Shown piece by piece: positions 10,477 through 22,713 of a stretch of 64,000 bases of DNA. The notes under the pieces are model-generated. The model was not told the origin of the DNA and did no database searches. It saw only the letters and a program-made list of their open reading frames with translations. The position numbers and the translations under genes are program-made. This stretch comes from an uncultured Porphyromonadaceae bacterium (GTDB taxonomy: Bacteria; Bacteroidota; Bacteroidia; Bacteroidales; Muribaculaceae): positions 1-64,000 of the forward strand of contig CANOLV010000009.1 of the NCBI GenBank assembly GCA_947567425.1, given 5' to 3'. Positions within the stretch are counted from its first letter, which is position 1; each line of letters begins with the position of its first letter.

Positions 10477-11160
10477 ATGATTCTTACTATGATTAACGCT
10501 CTTCAGGGAGCTATCGACATGGACACCAGTGTGTTTCTCTTCTTCAACGGTGCCCACAACGGTTTTTTCGACCATTTTATGAAAGCCTATAGCGGCAAGT
10601 GGATATGGGTGCCTCTCTATGCCACGCTGCTCTACGTGATGATCCGCAATTTTTCCATCAAGCAGACCATACTGTGTGTCATCGGTCTGTCGCTGACCAT
10701 AGCCTTTGCCGACCAGATATGCGCCACGTTCATCAGGCCGTTCGTCGAACGTCTGAGGCCGGCCAACCTTGACAATCCGATATCTCCGATGGTGCATATC
10801 GTGGGCAACTACCGTGGTGGCAGCTACGGCTTCCCGTCGTGCCATGCCGCCAATACGTTCGGCCTTGCATTCTTCATCTTTTTCCTCTTCAAGCGCTATT
10901 GGCTCACAGTGTTCATCATGGGGTGGGCGGCTCTGACCTGCTATTCCCGCATATACCTCGGGGTACACTATCCCGGCGACCTCCTTGCAGGCATGCTTGT
11001 CGGGTTTGTAGGCGCTTCGATCATGTATTTCCTATTTACGAGAATCGGCCGCTATCAGCGCGCCGAGCGCATCCACCACGTCTATTCACCGATTCTGACT
11101 GGCATGCTCACCATCGTGGGCATAATGGTCTATTCGGCCCACGCCTATTTCCTCAGTTGA
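10477..11160 (+). CDS. PAP2-family membrane phosphatase
   Basis: This 227-residue integral membrane protein carries the three PAP2 motifs: RPFVERLRP (about residues 87-95, the KxxxxxxRP position), PSCHAANT (about 119-126, the PSGH position with Cys for Gly), and SRIYLGVHYPGD (about 157-168, SRxxxxxHxxxD). The catalytic His and Asp are all present. Such enzymes remove phosphate from lipid phosphates such as undecaprenyl pyrophosphate or phosphatidate on the periplasmic face. The start may be the ATG at 10489 instead. It sits 17 bp after the sulfatase gene, suggesting cotranscription, and its last 8 bp overlap the convergent lipoprotein gene. Confidence 0.9.
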   Translation: MILTMINALQGAIDMDTSVFLFFNGAHNGFFDHFMKAYSGKWIWVPLYATLLYVMIRNFSIKQTILCVIGLSLTIAFADQICATFIRPFVERLRPANLDNPISPMVHIVGNYRGGSYGFPSCHAANTFGLAFFIFFLFKRYWLTVFIMGWAALTCYSRIYLGVHYPGDLLAGMLVGFVGASIMYFLFTRIGRYQRAERIHHVYSPILTGMLTIVGIMVYSAHAYFLS

Positions 11161-12115
11161 CGCTGAGGGCCTGTATTATCTCTCCGGCCTGGGCGTCCTT
11201 GAGCAGCACGGTATTGTCGGGCGCCAGCAGGTAGAGGGTAGGGGTGGCGCGGATCACGTAGACTTCGTCGCGGTCCACCGCTCCGTCGGGCGAACAGGCG
11301 CTGATCCAGTTGCCCGGAATCTTATTCTTCGACTTTTCCCATACTTCATTGTCGCCATCGCTGTACACCGCCACCACTTTGAGGCGGCCGTCGGCGATGG
11401 CGTCGTTTATTGCCGTATTTCCTGAGAGCATCGCTTTAGCGTGCTCGCACACGTCGCAGTCCGGATCATAGAACATCAGCAGCCTGTAGCTCCTGCCGTC
11501 GGCCGTACCGTAGAGTGAATTGCTGTTTCCGTTGCGGTCTACGAAGCTGAAGTCCGACGCTTTTTCGCCACGGCGGTTCTTCAGAGCATCCTTCAGTTGG
11601 CTTTCGAAGCGCACCTTTCTGTCGCTGTCCATGAATCGCGAGCCGGTTATGGCGTTGAGAAACAGTATATAGGCCTCTTCGTCCATCATGGGCGAATTTG
11701 GATCGTAGAGATATTTGTCGGCTATGTCGGCCAGCAGGTTGTAGGCCGACCGGTCGGCCGAGGCTTTTTCCATCAGCCGCTCCACGCTCGACCGGGCCGT
11801 GGCTTCGTCGACGTATGGAAGCAGATTGGCATAGTTGGCGAAATTCTGCTCCATGAATGCCTCGTCGCGGCTTTTCAGAGTATCGCCGAAGTCCATGGCT
11901 TCCCAAAAGTGCGTGACGAGATATGCCGCCCTGTCTGTAGGCAAAAGCAGAGTGTCGGGCACTTGGGGCAATGGCAGTTCCTCCGTAGTCGTCTCTTCAA
12001 CTTCAGCGGGTGCATGGGCCGTCGTGGATGACTCGTTATGCCGTTCGGCGCCGGTGCCGCACGAGGCCGGCAGCAGAGCCGCAATTGATAAGATAATAAT
12101 GTGTAAAGTCTTCAT
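11153..12115 (-). CDS. DUF5106/thioredoxin-like periplasmic lipoprotein
   Basis: This 320-residue protein has a lipoprotein signal (hydrophobic stretch ending LLPASCGTG, lipobox Cys about residue 19), an acidic Pro/Glu-rich linker, an alpha-helical segment typical of DUF5106, and a C-terminal thioredoxin-like domain. The domain has a CDVC redox motif (about residues 218-222, in FYDPDCDVCEHA) and the cis-Pro region RATPTLYLL. It is expected to face the periplasm as a disulfide reductase or oxidoreductase; the partner is unknown. It is convergent with and overlaps the PAP2 gene by 8 bp. Its own promoter (12123-12154) leaves almost no 5' leader. It also lies downstream of the leftward promoter in the invertible segment at 12239-12449, so that switch may influence it. 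Confidence 0.85.
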   Translation of the reverse strand: MKTLHIIILSIAALLPASCGTGAERHNESSTTAHAPAEVEETTTEELPLPQVPDTLLLPTDRAAYLVTHFWEAMDFGDTLKSRDEAFMEQNFANYANLLPYVDEATARSSVERLMEKASADRSAYNLLADIADKYLYDPNSPMMDEEAYILFLNAITGSRFMDSDRKVRFESQLKDALKNRRGEKASDFSFVDRNGNSNSLYGTADGRSYRLLMFYDPDCDVCEHAKAMLSGNTAINDAIADGRLKVVAVYSDGDNEVWEKSKNKIPGNWISACSPDGAVDRDEVYVIRATPTLYLLAPDNTVLLKDAQAGEIIQALSVN

Positions 12116-12122
12116 ATCGGCA

Positions 12123-12154
12123 CAAAACTACGATATTTAATCGTCATCTCCAAA
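12123..12154 (-). promoter_or_regulatory. Bacteroidetes consensus promoter of the thioredoxin-like lipoprotein
   Basis: On the minus strand TTTG (12151-12154), exactly 20 bp, and TAGTTTTG (12123-12130) match the -33/-7 consensus. The ATG at 12115 begins only 7 bp after the -7 box, implying a leaderless or near-leaderless mRNA if the annotated start is right. Confidence 0.75.
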
Positions 12155-12194
12155 TCAAGTGCCGGGAGTCACCGGCATCTGCTGTCCGATATGC

Positions 12195-12211
12195 TGTAGC
12201 GTCGATAGATG
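12195..12211 (+). repeat. 17-bp direct repeat, left copy (flanks fimbrial locus)
   Basis: TGTAGCGTCGATAGATG is found here and again at 22809-22825, where it overlaps the left arm of a terminator just past the last fimbrial gene. The two copies flank the entire fimbrial region in direct orientation. Confidence 0.6.
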
Positions 12212-12238
12212 TTAAATTTTTATCGATTAAAAATCACA

Positions 12239-12449
12239 CTCTCTTCCGTAGAGATAAATGTATGCTACAAAATTATGTAATAATCGCTAACTGACCAAAT
12301 AAATGCCACAATTTTAACACATAAATTTTCGAGAAGTATGAATGAAGTCGCGAATTATTGTCGATTTGTTTAGGAAATCAATCCGGGCGTGCCTGCAATT
12401 GCTTTTATATCAATGTTTTGCTCATGGTTTTTATCTCTACGGAAGAGAG
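12239..12449. repeat. Probable invertible promoter segment (20-bp perfect inverted repeats)
   Basis: CTCTCTTCCGTAGAGATAAA (12239-12258) recurs as its exact reverse complement at 12430-12449, bracketing 171 bp. Inside is a consensus promoter on the minus strand (12268-12299) that points away from the fimbrial genes starting at 12567. No TAnnTTTG box was found reading rightward between 12259 and 12566. This geometry is that of the phase-variable invertible promoters known upstream of Bacteroidales surface loci. Inversion would turn the promoter toward the fimbrial operon, so the assembled orientation is probably OFF for the fimbriae. No recombinase lies nearby, so a distant invertase would be needed. 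The rest of the 12116-12566 gap holds the lipoprotein promoter, a 17-bp repeat at 12195-12211 and the fimbrial leader. Confidence 0.8.
12268..12299 (-). promoter_or_regulatory. Promoter inside the invertible segment, currently leftward
   Basis: Minus-strand TTTG (12296-12299), 20-bp spacer, TAATTTTG (12268-12275): a full match to the Bacteroidetes sigma consensus. Transcription would leave the segment through the left repeat toward the lipoprotein gene at 12115. After inversion it would fire rightward toward the fimbrial gene at 12567. Confidence 0.75.
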
Positions 12450-12566
12450 AATGAAATTGTCGCTTTGTCGCACACCGGCACACAGAGGTCGCTTGCAGAT
12501 GGAAAAAATAGACACGTGACAACTCATGAAGCATCGAGATAATATCGTGAACTGAAAAAATATATA

Positions 12567-13151
12567 ATGAAAAAGATTATCATCTTATTGTTGGCGTTAG
12601 TTGCCTCGGCCGGTGCGGCCAAGGCTCAGGACATCGCAGTCAAGACAAATCTGCTCTACGACGCGTTTCTGACCATCAACGCCGGTGCAGAAGCCCGTGT
12701 GGCTCCTAAGTGGTCTGTCGACCTGTCCGGCAACTTCAATGCCTGGACTTTGAGCCACGGCAAAAAGTGGAAGCATTGGCTGGTCCAGCCTGAAGTGCGT
12801 TATTGGTTTTGCGATGCTTTTGCAGGTCACTTCGTTGCGGCGCATGCGCTCGCCGGACAGTACAATGTCGGTCACATCGACATGGGAGGTTTCAAATTTC
12901 TCGGTTCCGACTTCTCCCGATTGAAGGACCACCGCTATCAGGGTTGGTACGGAGGCCTCGGAATTGCCTACGGTTATTCCTGGATCCTGAGCAAGCACTT
13001 CAACCTTGAAGCCGAGATCGGTCTGGGCTGGATCTACACCAAGTACGACACTTTCGAGTGTGCCGGTTGCGGCCGTAAGGTGGCCCGCGGCACCACGCAC
13101 AACTATGTCGGCCCGACCAAGGCGGCCATCAGCCTTGTCTATGTATTCTAA
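12567..13151 (+). CDS. DUF3575-family barrel-like protein of the fimbrial locus
   Basis: This 194-residue protein has a cleavable signal peptide (to about AKAQ, residue 21) and alternating amphipathic beta-strands. Features include the DUF3575-like start AVKTNLLYDAFLTINAGAEA, tryptophan-rich central strands and a terminal VYVF typical of outer-membrane barrels. A CAGC pair near residue 164 could form a disulfide. DUF3575 proteins are regularly encoded at the head of Bacteroidales Mfa/Fim-type fimbrial operons; their exact role is not established. It is the first gene after the invertible promoter and is 39 bp from the DUF3868 gene. It is GC-rich, unlike the subunit genes downstream. Confidence 0.8.
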   Translation: MKKIIILLLALVASAGAAKAQDIAVKTNLLYDAFLTINAGAEARVAPKWSVDLSGNFNAWTLSHGKKWKHWLVQPEVRYWFCDAFAGHFVAAHALAGQYNVGHIDMGGFKFLGSDFSRLKDHRYQGWYGGLGIAYGYSWILSKHFNLEAEIGLGWIYTKYDTFECAGCGRKVARGTTHNYVGPTKAAISLVYVF

Positions 13152-13190: not shown

Positions 13191-14591
13191 ATGAAGAAAT
13201 TTCTTTTCAGCATAGCATTGGCTTCATGCGCCGTTTCGGCCATGGCCTCGGATCCTGTCGCCGACCTTAACGTCGAGCGGTCGGAAAGCAATCTTATCGT
13301 CAGCATGACGGTCGATCCTCAGTCCGTCGAGTCAAAGTCAAACCGCGAGGAGTGGCTCCGTCCGCTCATCACCAACGGTGTCGATTCGCTGTGGCTGCGG
13401 CCTGTGGTCATAGCCGGACGCACCCGCTACTACCAGCACCTGCGCCGCGACGGCAACGACCCCGCCGCATACTATATGATGCGCTCGGGCAAGGGCGAGC
13501 CATACGCCTATTCCGAGGTGGTGCCCTACGCCGACTGGATGGAGATGTCGACCCTCGTCATGAAGCGCGATGTCGACGGATGTTGCGGCGACGCCCTTGA
13601 GCCCACCAAGTCGTCAGACCTCGCTGTGCTCGATTTCCGTCCGCGCATATTCGAGCCGGTGCTCGTCTACGTAAAGCCTGAGGCGGAAGCCGTCAAAACC
13701 CGCGAGGTGCATGGGTCGGCCTACATCGACTTCCGTGTCAACCGCACCGACATCGACCCCTCCTACCGCCGCAATCCTGAAGAGCTGGCTGCCATCAGGG
13801 CCACCATCGATGCCGTCAGAAACGATGCCGACGTGACCATCACAAGCTTGTCGGTCAAGGGATTCGCTTCGCCGGAAGGCCCGTATAAGAACAACGAACG
13901 CCTTGCCAAGGGCCGTACAGAAGCTCTGGTGGACTACGTGCGCGACCTCTACAGCTTCCCTGCCGGACTGATGTCCACTTCGTGGGAGGCCGAGGACTGG
14001 GCAGGTCTGATTAAATATGTGGCTTCGTCCGATCTGGCCGACCGCGAGGCCATCATGGACGTGATCACCGACGACTCGCTCCAACCCGACGCGCGTGAAT
14101 GGCGATTGAAGTCGCGCTATCCCGAGCAGTATGCATTCCTGCTCAAAGAGGTATATCCCGGACTGCGCCACTCCGACTATGCCGTCAACTATAACGTGCG
14201 CAATTATGTCTCCGTCGAGGAGATAGCCGCAGTTATGGCCACGGCTCCGCAGAAGCTTTCGCTTGAAGAGCTGTTCCGCTATGCCCAGAGCCTCGACGAG
14301 GGATCGCCCGAGTTCCAGGAAGTGATGGAGGTGGCCGTGCGCATGTATCCCCAGTCCGACGTGGCCAATCTCAACGCCGCGGTGACTGCCATAGGCCACG
14401 GCGAGTTTGACATGGCCAGGGCATATCTCGCCAAGGCCGGCGATAGTCCTGAGGCGTCCTACGCTCGCGGCATCCTTGAAGCCAAAGCCGGCGACTATCC
14501 CGCCGCTGTGGCCCATCTGCAGGCCGCCCGCGGTGTAGCCGAGGCACAGGCCGCCATCGAGCGTCTGCGCGAACTCGGATTCATCGATTGA
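13191..14591 (+). CDS. DUF3868/OmpA-like fimbrial accessory protein
   Basis: This 466-residue exported protein has a signal peptide ending near AMAS (residue 20). Its N-terminal beta-rich half fits DUF3868. A central segment resembles an OmpA-type peptidoglycan-binding domain (GFASPEGPYKNNERLAKGR, about residues 224-242, then EALVDYV). The C-terminal 80 residues are Ala-rich TPR-like helices (MARAYLAKAGDSPEASYARG). Proteins of this type accompany fimbrillin genes in Bacteroidales and may tether the fimbrial assembly to the cell wall or outer membrane; this is inference. It is 39 bp after the DUF3575 gene and precedes the major fimbrillin, whose ATG at 14642 is 50 bp beyond this stop. Confidence 0.8.
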   Translation: MKKFLFSIALASCAVSAMASDPVADLNVERSESNLIVSMTVDPQSVESKSNREEWLRPLITNGVDSLWLRPVVIAGRTRYYQHLRRDGNDPAAYYMMRSGKGEPYAYSEVVPYADWMEMSTLVMKRDVDGCCGDALEPTKSSDLAVLDFRPRIFEPVLVYVKPEAEAVKTREVHGSAYIDFRVNRTDIDPSYRRNPEELAAIRATIDAVRNDADVTITSLSVKGFASPEGPYKNNERLAKGRTEALVDYVRDLYSFPAGLMSTSWEAEDWAGLIKYVASSDLADREAIMDVITDDSLQPDAREWRLKSRYPEQYAFLLKEVYPGLRHSDYAVNYNVRNYVSVEEIAAVMATAPQKLSLEELFRYAQSLDEGSPEFQEVMEVAVRMYPQSDVANLNAAVTAIGHGEFDMARAYLAKAGDSPEASYARGILEAKAGDYPAAVAHLQAARGVAEAQAAIERLRELGFID

Positions 14592-14641
14592 TACAACATG
14601 ATCTATTAAATACTCACTTTTTATTAATCAATTTAATTGCA

Positions 14642-16591
14642 ATGAAAAAATCCAATTTTCTATTCGGAGCAGTTGCCGCTTTAGCAATGGGCGGTGCTCT
14701 CACTGCTTGCTCCGACGAAGCTCCTGTTCAAGGAAACCAAAAGGCAGAGGCCGATGAAAACCTCTACATGAGAGTAGCCATCTCGGATATTAGTGCTGGT
14801 TCACGTGCCGCAAATACCGATGAAAATTTTGTGGATGGAACTCCTGCAGAAAATGAAGTAAAGTCAATGTACTTCAAATTCTATGACATTAACGGAGCGC
14901 CTGTCGCTACTCAAGCAGCTACAGATTATACTTTTGTTGATGCCACTACGGCTGATGGTGCACCAAGTGTAGGTAAGATCAAGACTGCAGTAGTTAAGAT
15001 AGGACTTGAAAAGGGTGAAAACTATCCGGCTTATGTTATGTGCTTTATCAATCCTGTAAACTGGAATGAAATTAGTGCTGAGTCAGATGCAAAAATGCAG
15101 GATCTTAGAAATAAGACCAGAGATAGCTACAAATCAACAGATAATGGTTTTGCCATGAACAACTCCGTTTATTATGGTAACGATGCTGTTTCCGGTGCTT
15201 CAAATGTTAAGATGAGCGGTACTCCAATCCTTGCTAATCAACTTTATACTTCCGAGGCGGCCGCAAACGCCGGTGATGCATCTACAGTTGATATTTATGT
15301 AGAACGTTATGCTTCTAAAGTTAACTTCACAATTGCTGAGAATGCCATAAAAGAATACACGACTGCTAATGGATATACTTTGACATTCGAACCTGAAGCG
15401 TGGACTATCAACGCTGATGCAAAAGAAATGTATGCCGTTAAGCGTTTTGCCACTACAGCTCCGGCTGAAGGTGCGGAGCAGCCTATCCCAACACTTGCTG
15501 ACGTTAACGCTATGCTTGGTAACTGGACTCTTTGGAATGACGCACCTCTTCACCGTAGCTATTGGGCTTGTTCTCCGTCATATTATGCGGTTGCTTTCCC
15601 TCAGGTATCTGACAATATCGCAGATTTAGTGGATGGTGATGGAACTGGTGCCGGTGAAGAAGTTGGAGAGTTTAAGCTAAAATACTACAGCTACAACCAG
15701 ATTGTGGCTACAACCGGAACAGGAGCCGGTGTGAAGGATTTTGCAGCATCGAATGACGGAACATTGCCTTGTAAGTATGTCCTCGAGAATACAATGGGAG
15801 AAGCTGCATTTGCTTCGCTTAATCCGAAAGCTGCGGCTCCTTCATTGCTCATGGCTGGAAGTTATAACGTAAAGAACGGCGAAACTGCTATTGACGCCAA
15901 CACCGGATTCTATTTGTATGACAATAATTTGTATTTTGGTGAAGTAGTAACCGGAGCAGTGGCTAATGCCGTAACGATGAAGAATAAATTCTTTGATGCT
16001 AATCTAGTTTTGGCTGTTGACGAGGAGGGAACTCTTCTGAATAGTGCAAGTGCCGGTACTTTAGCCTCTATCTTTGTTGTAAAACATCCTGATAAGGAAG
16101 TGCGTGGAACTCAGGCTGTTCCTCACCGTTTCGTTACATTGCAGCTTTCTTCCGCCCCGGCTACAGGTCTGTATTACAAGCCTAATGGTTCTTCTGTTTG
16201 GGTTGCTGTAACAGCTGACAATCTTAATGCTGTCAATCTTCTTCTTTGGCAACAACTTGGTAATGCATACGCATATACTGAGGGCAAGGCATATTATTCA
16301 ATTCCTATCAAGCACCTTGGAGCAACAGAGAATAAGACTGATTCTCCGTTCTCAGAAGTAGATGGTAAGGAAAGCATTGATTGGGCAAAAGTTCGCGTAG
16401 GTGACTTTGGTCTTGTACGTAACCACGTATATACACTTAATGTAACTGAGATATCTGGTCTTGCTACAGGTATTGAAGATCTTGATTATCCTATCGTTCC
16501 TCCGATGGATACTGATAATTATTGGATCAAGTATCGTCTTAATATCTTGAACTGGCGCATAGTTCCTGCTCAAGGCGGTATTATCCTCTAA
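14642..16591 (+). CDS. Mfa1-type major fimbrial subunit (lipoprotein precursor)
   Basis: This 649-residue protein starts at the ATG at 14642, not the in-frame ATG 54 bp earlier, because MKKSNFLFGAVAALAMGGALTACSDE is a textbook lipoprotein signal (lipobox LTAC; only fragments are needed to see it). The N-terminal domain has ENLYMRVAIS and VKSMYFKFYD strands typical of Mfa1 fimbrillins. The C-terminus LNWRIVPAQGG fits the strand that fills the next subunit in donor-strand exchange. Family members are exported as lipoproteins, trimmed by a protease on the surface (an Arg near SAGSRA is a plausible site) and polymerised. It is followed by a strong hairpin terminator, suggesting it is made in excess over the downstream minor subunits. 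The gene is AT-richer than its upstream neighbours. Confidence 0.88.
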   Translation: MKKSNFLFGAVAALAMGGALTACSDEAPVQGNQKAEADENLYMRVAISDISAGSRAANTDENFVDGTPAENEVKSMYFKFYDINGAPVATQAATDYTFVDATTADGAPSVGKIKTAVVKIGLEKGENYPAYVMCFINPVNWNEISAESDAKMQDLRNKTRDSYKSTDNGFAMNNSVYYGNDAVSGASNVKMSGTPILANQLYTSEAAANAGDASTVDIYVERYASKVNFTIAENAIKEYTTANGYTLTFEPEAWTINADAKEMYAVKRFATTAPAEGAEQPIPTLADVNAMLGNWTLWNDAPLHRSYWACSPSYYAVAFPQVSDNIADLVDGDGTGAGEEVGEFKLKYYSYNQIVATTGTGAGVKDFAASNDGTLPCKYVLENTMGEAAFASLNPKAAAPSLLMAGSYNVKNGETAIDANTGFYLYDNNLYFGEVVTGAVANAVTMKNKFFDANLVLAVDEEGTLLNSASAGTLASIFVVKHPDKEVRGTQAVPHRFVTLQLSSAPATGLYYKPNGSSVWVAVTADNLNAVNLLLWQQLGNAYAYTEGKAYYSIPIKHLGATENKTDSPFSEVDGKESIDWAKVRVGDFGLVRNHVYTLNVTEISGLATGIEDLDYPIVPPMDTDNYWIKYRLNILNWRIVPAQGGIIL

Positions 16592-16979: not shown

Positions 16980-18023
16980 ATGAAACTTACTTGCATGCGA
17001 CGCCTGTCCGGCATTTTGGCGATGTTGCTCACTCTCGGGGCCGCGTTGACATCGTGCGACAGTGCTATCTATGACGACCAAGGCGACTGTACGGTGCACT
17101 ACCGTGTGAAGTTTCGCTATTCTAAAAATGTCCTTGATGCGGATGCTTTTGGTTCGCAGGTGACAGATGTAAATTTATATCTGTATGACAAACAGGGGAA
17201 TCTGGTTTGTCACAAGTCTCAAGCACGTGCACTGACATCGGACAATGATTATTATATTGAGGTTGACGTACTTCCTGGGAATTATGACATGATAGCCTGG
17301 TGTGAGGGTAAGTCAGTTATTAAGGATGCGGAATCATTTGGCATTTCGGAAGATGCGGAATTAATGACCAGTTTGGGTGCAAAACTCCCTCTTAAAGGAA
17401 ATGGAGGTGATGGCTTGTATTCCAATAGTGATATAAACCGTTTCTATCATGGAATGTTGGAGAACGTTAATTTCCCAGATTCGTACGGTGTGGTTGATAT
17501 TGCACCTATCGAACTTACGAAGGATACAAATCACATACTTGTCCAACTTCAGAACGTCGGTAATGAACCTTTGGATGAAAGTATCATATCTGTAGAACTT
17601 GAAGGTGAAAACAGCTCTCTTGATTATAAAAATGAGTTGGTCGGGAGTACGGTATTTAAATATGAGCCATGGTCATATACTGGTACATCACTATCATATG
17701 GATCTGAAAATGAATCGCGTGCTTCGTTGGTGCAAAATGGTTTTCAGGCAGAGTTGACGACTGGTCGTATTATGGCCGATAAGGAGCAAAAGTTGACGGT
17801 ACGCCGTACGGACACGGATGAAATCATATTTAGCATTCCTCTTGTCGAGTATTTATTGCTTGTAAGAGGTGAGTACGAGAAGGCCACGTCTAATCAGGAC
17901 TATCTTGATCGCTGTGATGATTACACCTTGGTGTTTTTTATACAGGATGGCTATACGTGGATGAAAACTAAAGTGCTTATCAATGGTTGGCGAAGAGTCC
18001 CTCCTCAGAATTCCGGGATGTAA
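16980..18023 (+). CDS. FimB/Mfa2-family fimbrial anchor lipoprotein
   Basis: This 347-residue protein has a lipoprotein signal (LTLGAALTSCDSA, Cys about residue 26). The following CTVHYRVKFRYSKN and DVNLYLYDKQG segments are hallmarks of Mfa2/FimB proteins. These stay lipid-attached in the outer membrane, anchor the fimbrial base and limit fimbrial length. The C-terminus ends with the strand WMKTKVLINGWRRVPPQ. Position after the major subunit agrees with Porphyromonas mfa1-mfa2 order. It is AT-rich (visibly below the roughly 50 percent GC of nearby housekeeping genes) and 16 bp from the next subunit gene, so the three minor genes form a unit. Confidence 0.88.
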   Translation: MKLTCMRRLSGILAMLLTLGAALTSCDSAIYDDQGDCTVHYRVKFRYSKNVLDADAFGSQVTDVNLYLYDKQGNLVCHKSQARALTSDNDYYIEVDVLPGNYDMIAWCEGKSVIKDAESFGISEDAELMTSLGAKLPLKGNGGDGLYSNSDINRFYHGMLENVNFPDSYGVVDIAPIELTKDTNHILVQLQNVGNEPLDESIISVELEGENSSLDYKNELVGSTVFKYEPWSYTGTSLSYGSENESRASLVQNGFQAELTTGRIMADKEQKLTVRRTDTDEIIFSIPLVEYLLLVRGEYEKATSNQDYLDRCDDYTLVFFIQDGYTWMKTKVLINGWRRVPPQNSGM

Positions 18024-18039
18024 TCATAAATTATAGGTT

Positions 18040-19464
18040 ATGAAACACTTTTACGGTTATATTAGTGGGCTTGCTTTAGTCACCATTATGTTAACATTGA
18101 TACTTGGATTGTATTCCTGTGTCGATGAGAATGGTAACTGTTCTGACCCTGTGGCCGGAGATGACGGCAAAATATTTCTCCGGTTTACCATAATGACAAG
18201 GTCTGATGATGCTCCATTGCTAAATTCAAATAATACATTTATGTCCAAAGCCCCCGATATTGAAGGCGATATTGAGGGGTCAGGGTTGGAGAATAAGTTG
18301 AATTTGGATGATTTACATTATTTCCTATTTGATGAGGATCGCGGATTTCTTCAAGATTTCACTCCGAAATCCACCACAATAGCTGAATCTGATAATTATA
18401 AGCTTTATCAAGTTGTCGCAAATATTGATGATGAGTATATAGAAAAAAATATCACCGGAACAGTATCATTTTATATAATGGCTTTGGCTAATTACTCAGA
18501 TTGGGGAGTGAATTTGCCGACGTTAACCAGAGGTACGACAATAGAGGAATTTTTGCAATTGGCATCGAATGTTGTGATGACTTCTATGCCCAATCCGAGA
18601 AAGTTATTGCGTTCGGACGATTATTGGCATCTTTACCCGGGAGGAGCCTATTTCCCTATGGCAGGATTGCAAAAATTTGATGTCCCAGGGAACATGCTTA
18701 CTGTGTCGAGTGTCCAGAATCCGTATGATATCTCGTTTGCTACGGGGAAGGATCTGAATATGCTGAGATCTCTTGTGAAAATTGAGGTTATCGACAAAAT
18801 CAATGTAAATGGGATATATCAAGAAAGTGTCGACGGTATTTATTTTCACGATGGTACGACTGAGGATCCTGCCGGGAAAAACTCATGGCTTCGTGTCGAT
18901 AAAGTAGAAATTAATGGAGTTATGTCCCAGGGTACCTTAGTGCCGTCAATATCAGAATGGACTAATGGAGACGCCGATGAAACTCAGCAAGTTAATGCCC
19001 CAACAATTCCGTTAAGTGCAAAGTATAATGCACCTCCGGAATTATATGACAACAATGAATTTGGCGACGGTTATAATGGAGATGCGTTGATTGACTTTAT
19101 GCCGGATCGTTATGCTACGGAATTAAGGGCTGACAAGTGTCCAGTATTTTCTGGATATGTATTTGAATATAGCAAGTTGGCAGAACAATTGAAGGATATT
19201 CCTTCGACAATGCAGCCATATATCAGAATAACCACAAGGGGATATACTGATTTTAGCGGGCAAGTGTTGGCGGAATCCATGATTCTACCATTAAGAATAG
19301 CGAAGTATAAGGACGGCATATCGAGTGCTTCTGATAATTTGGATTATTTGTTGCGCAATCATATATACCGGTTCGAGTTGTTTGGTATTTCTCAAGATAT
19401 TCAAATAAACTGGACGGTTTGTGATATGACAACTGGAAAAGAAGCTAATATTGAATTCAATTAG
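18040..19464 (+). CDS. Minor fimbrial subunit, fimbrillin-like lipoprotein
   Basis: This 474-residue lipoprotein has a hydrophobic signal ending LGLYSCVDE (Cys about residue 27). N-terminal strands such as GKIFLRFTIM and LDDLHYFLFDEDRGF, and the C-terminal strand YRFELFGISQDIQINWTV, resemble Mfa1/Mfa3-type minor subunits that cap or extend fimbriae. No precise orthologue can be assigned by eye. Its location between the Mfa2-type anchor and the large DUF4906 protein suggests an adaptor near the tip. The region is AT-rich, like its neighbours. It is 15 bp upstream of the next gene. Confidence 0.75.
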   Translation: MKHFYGYISGLALVTIMLTLILGLYSCVDENGNCSDPVAGDDGKIFLRFTIMTRSDDAPLLNSNNTFMSKAPDIEGDIEGSGLENKLNLDDLHYFLFDEDRGFLQDFTPKSTTIAESDNYKLYQVVANIDDEYIEKNITGTVSFYIMALANYSDWGVNLPTLTRGTTIEEFLQLASNVVMTSMPNPRKLLRSDDYWHLYPGGAYFPMAGLQKFDVPGNMLTVSSVQNPYDISFATGKDLNMLRSLVKIEVIDKINVNGIYQESVDGIYFHDGTTEDPAGKNSWLRVDKVEINGVMSQGTLVPSISEWTNGDADETQQVNAPTIPLSAKYNAPPELYDNNEFGDGYNGDALIDFMPDRYATELRADKCPVFSGYVFEYSKLAEQLKDIPSTMQPYIRITTRGYTDFSGQVLAESMILPLRIAKYKDGISSASDNLDYLLRNHIYRFELFGISQDIQINWTVCDMTTGKEANIEFN

Positions 19465-19479
19465 ATTACCAGGTAAATA

Positions 19480-22400
19480 ATGAATAAGTTGAAATTTAGC
19501 ATACTGTTGGCGGTGTTATTTATGTCATTGAGCATCCTGCCATCATGTAACGATGAGACAATTGATATACCCAACTATACTGTGGAGGGTCAGGATGTCA
19601 CGTTGTCCATACCGATAAAGATTCCGGAAATGGAGGTGAAATCAAGGGCTTCACTCCCTACTGAGGCTCTTAATACGGTCAACTCGTTATGGATTAGAAC
19701 GTATAGTTCGTCTACCGGATTGGCAACCAGTAAGTGGTTGAAATTAGATCCAAATACAACCGATACTGAAGTAGGTCGGCAGGTAGAGATTAATATTGAT
19801 ACTCAAAGTGGGTACAATTATATTGTAGGTGTTGCTAATGTTGAGAATCTGGGAATTGACAAGAATAACCCTACTGTCGAAAAATCTCTCAGCGAACTTC
19901 TTGACGGTGCCGATACATGGACTGATTTTTTGAATATTGCAGTTGTATCTCCATCGGATTTCAATGATGTCAATGCTCCGGCAACTCCGTTGCCAATGGC
20001 CGGTTGCTATATTGATATAAATCCGGGATCAACGCATCCGAATAATCTTGGAGAGTGGCAGAAGAGCAATTTTACGCCATACTTTATTCCGGCGCAAAAG
20101 AGTATCGTAAAGTGGACAAACGGCGCTATTCATCTCCGTCGTTTGGTGTCCAATTTTACTTTTAATGTGTTGCCCGGAAATGATAATATTGAAGTTACGG
20201 TTAATAGTTATGCCGTATCAAATGCACCCAAGTATTCGTGGCTCTATGAACGTTCAGATGACGATGGAATGACCTCTAATTATGGCGATTTTGCTGATGA
20301 AGAAGATGCCGATGGTTTTTATGTGGACGTTCCTCAGTTCCCATCTCAGTATATTACGAAAAATACGGATGGCACCTCCGTTTTTAATTTTTGGTTAGCG
20401 GAAAACAAGCATGAAGGAACATCTACAACTTATCAGGAACGTGAGATTCGTGATACCTCAAATCGGAGTCTATTTACAAGTCTGACAGGATCGATATGGA
20501 CTCCCAATAATATGGCATCATATATACGGTTGTCCTGTACGATTGATTATAAGAATCAGATATCTGTTGGTGATCAAGGGCAAATGCAGGATGGAGGAAC
20601 CGATGTTTATCGTACGGGAAATGCAGAGTATTATATCCATTTGGGCTATATCGAAGGTTCAACATTGGCTGAAAAGTCAAAGGATTTCAATTGCTATCGT
20701 AATACGGATTATACATATAATATAACAGTCAATGGTATCGACGACATTCGGGTTGATGCTTGGGCAAACAAGGAAAGCTATCCGGGTGAGGAAGGTCAGG
20801 TAAGTGACCTGCAGTACGCTACGATTGAGCTCGATGCGCATTACCATGTGTTTAACATTAATTTGACGCAAACAGATTTGAGCGATCCTAATTTTGGATT
20901 TATAATAACATCATATTACAATGGTATTCAATATAATTTTGATGAGAACACGGCTTTAGATCAAGTTGATGATGCAAAGTTATATAATTGGATAGAACTT
21001 AGGCCTACAACGGGTCGGGATGTCCTTTCGGAATATAAGCCAAGGTACGGAAGCAATGCCGATGGAAAGACATTCCTGCTTACAGATTTAAAGGGTGGGT
21101 GGAACAGTATGACATCGAATATGAAGTCTGAGACGGGATGGTACACAGTATTCGTAAATGAATATACTTATGAAAATATGTTCGGTAGCGATGGATATGG
21201 AAATGAAGTCACTTCTGGAGATAGACCCAATTGGATGAATTATGTAAATCAAAATCCGAGACGTTTCTATATACGTGTCACAAGAAGTATGTCTGTTGAT
21301 GGAAATAGTATATATACCCGATCGAAATACGGTGTATCGCAAAAATCCATTCAAACATATTATTCAGACCAGGTATTTGCTCCTGCCGACGGTGATATTT
21401 CTAAAGGTACGGCTATCGGTACGGAACGTGAAAATGAGACAGAGGGGTTAAATATCTGCCGTCCGGGAGATTACGGAAATGACGCAAGCAATGGCCGTTT
21501 TAATGCGGCTCAGTGGTTGCAAAAGAGTAATTCGGACGTTGTCTCAATTAATTCTGATGAGAATAGCAGACCTTTGTGGAGCAACTTTGTAGATTTAACA
21601 AAGCCGATGCAGATTCCGGCAGTAAATGGTGAGCGGACTCAGGGTGGTCCTGATTTGCCGGACCGCACAGGTGATAATGCAGTAAAGTTACCAAAACTCG
21701 CAAATAGTACAGATTCGCGTAGTTACACATATTCGGATCCTCAGGCAAGTAACGATAGAGACTATTATATAGATGTCTATAATGCGTGTATGAGCCGTAA
21801 TCGCGATAATAATGGAAATGGACGAATTGATCCGGAAGAATTACGTTGGTATATCCCTGCTATGGGCAAATATCTTCGATTGCTTCTTGGCGCTCCTTCG
21901 CTGTCTGAGCCTTTGATGAATTTTAGTGAAATTGCAAGGATTCCAAAAGGAAGCAATAACGGATGGGTTACCCCCAATAATGACCAGATTCCGAACGACT
22001 ATTTGTCCCGATACATGTTCTCGACCAGCGATGGTGCCCGTGTTCTGTGGGCTATGGAGGGTATGTCTACTTCAACGTGGAGTCAAGTTTATGGTTGGTC
22101 GACGAATAATTCATATCCATGGCAGGTTCGGTGTATCCGAAATCTTGGCACAGACTTGAGAAGTGTATCGAAGAATGAGAAGGTCACTATGGCATACGTT
22201 TTTGATGAAACGAATCGCGAGATAACATTTACATATTATGATAATGCAGCTATACGTCAGTATCGTTTAAGCGGTAATGGAACAGGTGGAGGGGCAATGC
22301 CTACGCATAATATCATTTCGGATAATAATAAGCCATATAAAAAATTCGAGTACGCTTCCTCCAACATTACCGTTTCTGGCAATAATAAGACGCTCAATGG

Positions 22401-22713
22401 CTTGCAGAATTATATATTGTCTAATCCCTGTTCCAGCGTGTCAGGTACGGGTTGGAGAGTCCCGAATCAGAAAGAGTTGGCAATTCTATTAAACCGAGGA
22501 ACTATCCTTACTGAAAATGGCAGTTTTTTGACTTGTACGTATAACTATTTTAATAGCATTACAGGAGTAGGCGGAGGATATACGAATGGCCAAAACTATT
22601 TTCTTGGGATGCTTGGCTCCGGAATTGGAAACATGGGATCGAGAGGTACATTATTTTCATCAGGTAATTTAGCGTACACAATGTATGTGCGTTGTGTACG
22701 TGATGTTGATTAG
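19480..22713 (+). CDS. Large DUF4906-like fimbrial tip protein with an EF-hand-like loop
   Basis: This 1077-residue lipoprotein (signal ending LSILPSCND, Cys about residue 23) is the last gene of the locus. Its N-terminal half is fimbrillin-like (TVNSLWIRTY, GYNYIVGVANVENLG). The C-terminal half contains DNNGNGRIDPEELRWYIPAM (about residues 776-795), which fits a calcium-binding EF-hand or dockerin-type loop, and a C-terminal lectin/FISUMP-like module (GTGWRVPNQKELAIL, YTMYVRCVRD). Large DUF4906 proteins are common companions of Bacteroidales fimbriae and are thought to act as tip adhesins; binding specificity is unknown. It is AT-rich and followed by two terminators. Confidence 0.75.
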   Translation: MNKLKFSILLAVLFMSLSILPSCNDETIDIPNYTVEGQDVTLSIPIKIPEMEVKSRASLPTEALNTVNSLWIRTYSSSTGLATSKWLKLDPNTTDTEVGRQVEINIDTQSGYNYIVGVANVENLGIDKNNPTVEKSLSELLDGADTWTDFLNIAVVSPSDFNDVNAPATPLPMAGCYIDINPGSTHPNNLGEWQKSNFTPYFIPAQKSIVKWTNGAIHLRRLVSNFTFNVLPGNDNIEVTVNSYAVSNAPKYSWLYERSDDDGMTSNYGDFADEEDADGFYVDVPQFPSQYITKNTDGTSVFNFWLAENKHEGTSTTYQEREIRDTSNRSLFTSLTGSIWTPNNMASYIRLSCTIDYKNQISVGDQGQMQDGGTDVYRTGNAEYYIHLGYIEGSTLAEKSKDFNCYRNTDYTYNITVNGIDDIRVDAWANKESYPGEEGQVSDLQYATIELDAHYHVFNINLTQTDLSDPNFGFIITSYYNGIQYNFDENTALDQVDDAKLYNWIELRPTTGRDVLSEYKPRYGSNADGKTFLLTDLKGGWNSMTSNMKSETGWYTVFVNEYTYENMFGSDGYGNEVTSGDRPNWMNYVNQNPRRFYIRVTRSMSVDGNSIYTRSKYGVSQKSIQTYYSDQVFAPADGDISKGTAIGTERENETEGLNICRPGDYGNDASNGRFNAAQWLQKSNSDVVSINSDENSRPLWSNFVDLTKPMQIPAVNGERTQGGPDLPDRTGDNAVKLPKLANSTDSRSYTYSDPQASNDRDYYIDVYNACMSRNRDNNGNGRIDPEELRWYIPAMGKYLRLLLGAPSLSEPLMNFSEIARIPKGSNNGWVTPNNDQIPNDYLSRYMFSTSDGARVLWAMEGMSTSTWSQVYGWSTNNSYPWQVRCIRNLGTDLRSVSKNEKVTMAYVFDETNREITFTYYDNAAIRQYRLSGNGTGGGAMPTHNIISDNNKPYKKFEYASSNITVSGNNKTLNGLQNYILSNPCSSVSGTGWRVPNQKELAILLNRGTILTENGSFLTCTYNYFNSITGVGGGYTNGQNYFLGMLGSGIGNMGSRGTLFSSGNLAYTMYVRCVRDVD

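Follow-up and report, generated by a model that had tools for sequence, protein, structure and literature searches.

The 171-bp segment upstream of a type V fimbrial operon in an uncultured Porphyromonadaceae bacterium (family Muribaculaceae) is very probably a phase-variation switch, in which a tyrosine recombinase, most likely the one encoded on contig C3, would invert the promoter that precedes the operon. The segment lies in a stretch of 64,000 nucleotides (hereafter the window), and its features are collected in Table 1. An invertible promoter before the fimbrial locus had been proposed by an earlier, sequence-only reading, and the proposal is now supported by a family of similar sites, by the placement of promoters within such segments, by a sister switch found inverted between two species and by a matching recombinase in the genome.

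The segment, its promoter and the fimbrial operon

The perfect 20-bp inverted repeat around 171 bp, reported by the sequence-only reading, was indeed present. No other perfect inverted pair in the window with a gap of 20-1000 bp is as long, the next ones measuring 15 and 14 bp. A search of the 2.92-Mb assembly with up to two mismatches returned only the two places of the arm itself; at three mismatches one further place was found, on contig C34, and it had no inverted partner of at least 13 bp at 60-500 bp. The exact arm had no match in viral contigs, and neither the segment nor its left flank matched any of the other loci examined (blastn, E 1e-3). A single arm match in genome G007 was considered as a possible relative of the switch and rejected; it had no partner in the G007 loci examined and looks like chance.

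Table 1. Features of the window around the segment, with the basis of each assignment
Feature	Coordinates	Strand	Basis
Leftward neighbour, DUF5106 and thioredoxin-like protein	11153..12115	-	PF17127, PF13905
Separate fixed promoter of the leftward gene, TTTG-N20-TAGTTTTG	12123..12154	-	Perfect consensus
Weak terminator-like hairpin between segment and leftward gene	12160..12177	-	Consensus scan only
Left recombination site (inverted repeat arm), CTCTCTTCCGTAGAGATAAA	12239..12258	+	Perfect 20-bp repeat with 12430-12449; member of the ATCTCT-N5-AGAGAT family
171-bp segment, probably invertible	12259..12429	.	Site pair on both sides; 51 more non-redundant family pairs at other loci
Segment promoter, TTTG-N20-TAATTTTG, aimed away from the fimbriae as assembled	12268..12299	-	Perfect consensus
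Right recombination site (inverted repeat arm), core as in left	12430..12449	-	Repeat match
Fimbrial operon gene 1, DUF3575 protein	12567..13151	+	PF12099, E 1.4e-75
Operon gene 2, 466 aa	13191..14591	+	No Pfam match; homologues adjoin DUF3575 in L103, L114, L117, L197, L202, L032
Fimbrillin, Mfa1-like major subunit	14588..16591	+	PF15495 (Fimbrillin_C), E 9e-16; NF038041 119.3 bits, under the cut-off of 130
Mfa2-type fimbrial anchor	16980..18023	+	PF08842, E 2.5e-47
Operon gene, 474 aa, without family match; probable fimbrial subunit by position	18040..19464	+	
Large last gene, 1077 aa, perhaps tip protein (position and weak match)	19480..22713	+	P_gingi_FimA 20.0 bits against a cut-off of 21.4

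Inside the repeat, the full consensus promoter said to face away from the fimbriae was recovered as a perfect TTTG-N20-TAnnTTTG match on the minus strand. Perfect promoters of this type (spacer 19-21) numbered 5 in the whole window, against 0, 0, 2, 1 and 0 in five dinucleotide shuffles. The asserted absence of a rightward consensus promoter before the operon also held: the plus strand of 12116-12567 gave no match with up to one mismatch, and its sole string with two mismatches (12190-12220) lies outside the segment. An E. coli-type promoter-like string, GTGACA-N16-GATAAT, is present at 12516-12543 on the plus strand; strings of this kind numbered 4 in the scanned 3.6 kb as against 2.3 in shuffles. 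When the segment was inverted by script, the intact promoter came to lie at 12389-12420 on the plus strand with the repeats unchanged, so that a flip would aim it at the operon, as had been anticipated. The arrangement is that of an inverton, with an inverted pair around a short segment, a consensus -33/-7 promoter inside it aimed outward, and an operon for a surface structure targeted after inversion. The genes downstream include those of a fimbrillin and an Mfa2-type anchor together (PF15495, PF08842), as in a type V (Mfa/Fim-like) fimbrial operon. The fimbrillin reading frame is listed from a TTG at 14588 and overlaps the preceding gene (window 14588-14641); an in-frame ATG further inside it (MKKSNFLFG...) looks like the real start.

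We propose that a tyrosine site-specific recombinase would bind and pair the two inverted ATCTCT-N5-AGAGAT-type sites, and that the DNA between them would thereby be inverted. In the assembled state, the segment's only strong promoter would read to the left, towards a weak hairpin and a gene with its own promoter, and the fimbriae would be OFF. The flipped segment would begin transcription a few bases short of the right site, some 140 nt ahead of the DUF3575 start codon, and set the fimbriae ON. The OFF assignment made earlier is supported for the assembled orientation, where the promoter is aimed away and a rightward consensus promoter is absent, the assembly being one consensus. Alternatively, the promoter may alternate between the fimbriae and the DUF5106-thioredoxin gene, the present orientation being the other state and not a silent one. 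The promoter now faces that gene, whose start is about 150 nt away, and there are relatives with one segment between divergent DUF3575 operons (L103) or SusC operons (L101, L203, L205). We nevertheless consider alternation of this kind unlikely in the window, since the leftward gene has a perfect promoter of its own, a weak terminator-like hairpin stands in between, and the gene is neither fimbrial nor of the SusC type. The scan of 3.6 kb gave 9 terminator-like hairpins, and shuffled sequence gave 3.0 on average.

The ATCTCT-N5-AGAGAT site family

Muribaculaceae are abundant gut commensals, and inverted pairs were found before the DUF3575 genes of some relatives of the window species. Their letters differ but their plan is common, TCTCT-N5-AGAGA with mostly A/T flanks, and the inner letters (core) are equal within a pair and variable between loci. 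The window repeat belongs with these pairs in a family of recombination sites, ATCTCT-N5-AGAGAT. In Muribaculaceae genomes, pairs of the family adjoin fimbrial, SusC/SusD, capsule (UpxY) and other operons. The strict site ATCTCTTNNNAAGAGAT, from which the window sites differ by two bases, one in the arm and one in the core, occurred in 68 of 198 Muribaculaceae genomes (control: 1) and in 5 of 117 from elsewhere in the same order (control: 2). In the window's genus there were 57 pattern matches over 14/14 genomes as against 4 for the reversed control, counted strand-wise, so that a near-palindromic site can score on both strands. A site pair was present at 7/47 DUF3575 loci, the window counted in, with L051 as an imperfect eighth, and at 1/18 in a separate set of named database records; most DUF3575 operons therefore lie outside the control of such a switch. 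The one locus in the separate set (L177:296-507) comes from a record of an uncultured Porphyromonadaceae bacterium.

The window genome has two family pairs only, both before DUF3575 fimbrial operons, one in the window and the other on contig C2. Seven other places with up to one mismatch to the site were all single (control: two places). The C2 switch was assembled with its promoter towards its operon (ON-like) and the window switch is OFF-like; the assembly, which is a consensus only, thus shows one fimbria OFF and one ON. Pair-private cores as an evolved insulation between switches were considered and rejected. There was no sign of avoidance between loci of one genome, because identical cores made up only 3.4% of the comparisons between genomes (44/1289), as against 2/37 within genomes.

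Sister pairs were sought in 62 loci, namely the window, 20 regions of its genus (covering part of the pattern matches there), 40 regions of the family and L032. The 40 family regions comprised, among the matches listed, all 19 loci in which two strict sites lie no more than 500 bp apart and 21 others; L210 and L211 were picked partly because a recombinase adjoined the site. After three overlapping alternatives (L197, L202, L219) had been removed, 52 non-redundant pairs were obtained from 49 of the 62 loci; 13 of these loci, nearly all chosen around site matches, had none. Spacing was 138-205 bp in 42/52 pairs, the longest being 447 bp. Perfect promoters were carried by 9/52 segments (mean over 200 shuffles 0.5, maximum 3); with one mismatch allowed, the count rose to 26/52 (shuffles: mean 7.6, maximum 15). 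In 19 of these 26 switches with a recognised promoter, the first-listed promoter ended at the typical 10-16 nt from the site it faces, the other seven at 20-117 nt; in the window, the distance from the promoter end to the 15-nt site core is 13 nt. A promoter-like string (mismatch score up to 2) was found at one end in 44/52 segments and at the other end in 1/52, with 11/101 at control positions, which is a description and not an independent test because the searched place was chosen from the earlier promoter scan. Eight of the 52 segments had no such string at either end.

The neighbours of the pairs were DUF3575 operons (7/52), SusC genes (8/52) and UpxY/NusG-like genes (8/52, three of them with weak scores, two of these being fusion proteins), the remaining pairs being unlabelled by the query set. 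Of the fimbrial switches, those of L117 and L197 have the promoter towards the operon and those of the window and L116 have it away from the operon, as does that of L202 by a weak call; the switch of L103 serves two operons, and in L032 the orientation could not be called because a run of N lies inside the segment. Contig breaks were considered as a sign of mixed orientation, at least 9 strict sites among the matches listed being no more than about 130 bp away from the end of a contig; having no control, they were set aside as evidence.

One sister switch was found inverted between two species of the window's genus, at L105 (G001) and L109 (G009). The flanks of the two loci are collinear (84.5% identity over 400 bp on the left, 74.3% over 300 bp on the right), and between them the two segments, one taken inverted, share 76.5% identity over 213 bp (E 2e-41); the first 60 nt, on the side that carries the promoter, are identical. 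Compared without inversion, the segments showed 60% identity as against 58% in the control, which is near background. This was the only compared pair in which both flanks matched in the same order around an inverted segment. Since the segment is inverted between collinear flanks, the ATCTCT-N5-AGAGAT site family does invert. Beside this switch, both loci encode a protein of about 540 aa (L105:4491-6113 and L109:1541-3166, both on the minus strand). A profile scan of the L105 protein revealed a recombinase core-binding domain (PF13102) and a NusG/UpxY-type antiterminator (PF02357), to which a recombinase domain is also joined, and the L109 protein is similar. The recombinase domain is seemingly dead, as judged by eye, and the fusion protein may bind the switch sites without cutting.

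We give hardly any credence to the reading of the repeats as paired operators, a hairpin or the ends of a small transposable element instead of recombination sites. Each window arm does have internal dyad symmetry, as an operator might have. Against such readings stand the cores, equal within a pair and mostly different between loci (equality was required by the pair finder, but a motif-free repeat search gave the same pairs), the promoter placement, constant with respect to one segment end, and the sister segment inverted between species; nor was a target-site duplication seen by eye beside the window arms.

The candidate recombinase

Five Phage_integrase matches were found in the window genome: two proteins of 305-306 aa, which we take to be XerD and XerC, two integrases listed at 424-425 aa, on C17 and C3, and a fragment. 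Two serine recombinases are also present, including one of 227 aa on C2. The C3 gene (contig C3, 20210-21409) encodes a 400-residue protein with the architecture Arm-DNA-bind_5/Phage_int_SAM_5/Phage_integrase; among solved structures, only a XerC-like protein and IntI4 matched it by sequence, and weakly. An alignment of 17 homologues, that of the window genome included, shows no variation at R, K, R, H and Y, presumably the catalytic residues, and a tyrosine recombinase with catalytic residues is present in the genome.

Relatives of the C3 recombinase (E 1e-60 or better) occurred in 13/14 genomes of the genus and 123/198 of the family. Site-bearing family genomes had a match in 61/68 cases, leaving 7/68 with none, as compared to 62/130 among genomes without sites (Fisher p 1.4e-9, relatedness ignored). 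At the best 9 matching loci outside the window genome (one per genome), an ATCTCT-type pair was found in 6, a variant pair in 1 and none in 2, and in those 6 the distance from the 3' end of the recombinase gene to the start of the nearest site copy is 57-222 bp. A gene for this recombinase lies within 2.5 kb in 6 of the 19 listed loci with two strict sites (L194-L198, L208). Within the window's genus, an ATCTCT-type pair stands beside the recombinase in 1/15 loci (L122, G005), and the C3 gene of the window genome stands alone, with no ATCTCT-type pair beside it; the link between enzyme and site thus rests on homology and co-occurrence. Standing alone, the C3 recombinase would act in trans, on the window switch and on the second fimbrial switch on C2, a mode of action described for Tsr19 and Tsr0667 of B. 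fragilis (PMC4747536).

There is a small but real chance that the segment is inverted by another enzyme, for example the 227-aa serine recombinase of C2 or the second tyrosine integrase on C17, both of which are present in the genome. A serine recombinase, Mpi, runs capsule promoters of B. fragilis (PMC4747536), and in genome G027 a serine recombinase relative (100 bits) is located upstream of a tyrosine recombinase and its site pairs. In many genomes, site pairs follow the 3' end of a C3-type tyrosine recombinase gene, which argues for the C3 enzyme instead, adjacency having been compared for the C3 type only. It is quite improbable that the switch is a locked relic, its anatomy intact and its inversion lost in this lineage. 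Such a loss would fit a recombinase gene that adjoins no site in the window genome, and an inverted copy from the same species was not found by DNA search nor via the DUF3575 protein in GTDB contigs, the compared loci including no orthologous segment. The 20-bp arms are perfect, though drift would erode them, the recombinase keeps its catalytic residues, and the second family pair of the genome is in the opposite functional state, all of which speak for a working switch.

Two site pairs with different cores were seen in tandem after one recombinase gene at L208 (G027:C47), L210 and L211 (G183). At L135:2762-2974 (G008:C33), the gene of a more distant recombinase paralogue (41% identity) stops 32 bp short of an inverted pair of another sequence, TTCTCCGGGAGAAACTGA, after which comes a gene that we take to be of the UpxY type; the paralogue and its pair hint at a second site specificity.

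Known systems and shared segments

In E. coli, the tyrosine recombinases FimB and FimE, encoded adjacent to fimS, invert its promoter and set fimbriae ON or OFF. The window switch would work alike, but fimbria type, promoter type and sites differ and the loci are not homologous. The window switch belongs to a known kind, the tyrosine-recombinase invertible promoters of Bacteroidales, and the earlier statement that invertible promoters are established at surface loci of this order is borne out by B. fragilis and by fimbrillin-linked cases in the literature cited below. In B. fragilis, Tsr19/BF2766 (IVp-I, IVp-II) and Tsr0667 (SusC/SusD) are tyrosine recombinases that invert promoters locally and at a distance; as described in PMC4747536 and PMC3090145, these switches lie, like that of the window, upstream of surface operons and have a -7 box TAnnTTTG. 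Host family and targets differ from those of the window. Mpi of B. fragilis is one enzyme serving several invertible promoters, including those of capsule operons (PMC4747536, PMC12632263), but it is a serine recombinase whereas the enzyme linked to the window is a tyrosine recombinase.

Invertible promoters beside fimbrillin-family genes, with nearby integrases, are reported in Bacteroidota for inverton groups 137, 112 and 122 of the hCom2 community in PMC11892184, which the window resembles in this; group 137 is linked there to an invertase group. The main text of PMC11892184 has no 'Muribaculum', 'Duncaniella' or 'Muribaculaceae'. For Bacteroidales, PMC8748976 describes one or two invertible regions in tandem immediately behind an invertase gene, with a -33 TTTG/-7 TANNTTTG promoter and upxY neighbours, and the same invertase-plus-promoter plan is seen at sister loci L197, L198, L208 and L211. 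Compared with the systems of PMC8748976, the downstream genes are others and the recombinase gene of the window genome is not adjacent. No account of promoter inversion, or of this system, in Muribaculaceae was found among the open-licence papers listed, and the site motif may already be in print. The motif letters AGAGAT were not found in literature text on Bacteroid invertible elements, which says little because motifs get printed as figures.

More unusual than the window switch itself are the segments shared between divergent operons in relatives. At L103:6299-6722 (G012:C1, about 2987296-2987723), a single segment separates two divergent DUF3575 fimbrial operons, of which the left is the closest relative of the window operon (77% DUF3575 identity); the sole good promoter of the segment faces left, suggesting an either/or toggle. 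One segment also lies between two divergent SusC/SusD operons in three genomes (L101:6087-6448, L203:6756-7232, L205:5222-5651). With a single segment between them, the two operons at each of these four loci would be alternatives.

On balance we lean towards the view that Muribaculaceae own a family-wide phase-variation regulon, in which one type of tyrosine recombinase, often in trans, would act on dispersed ATCTCT-N5-AGAGAT pairs before fimbrial, SusC/SusD and capsule operons. The window species would have just two fimbrial operons under such control, with independent states, and the single segment between divergent operons in relatives would make two fimbriae or two nutrient receptors mutually exclusive. 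If this is true, divergent operons sharing a segment would offer an easy way to express either of two fimbriae but not both. With the site motif and a likely recombinase in hand, the switches of a genome could be listed, and variable surface operons predicted and tested by read mapping. At L104:6332-7770 (G001), a 1.4-kb stretch between two family sites holds a DDE transposase gene; an insertion element seems to have entered a switch that precedes a SusC/SusD-like operon.
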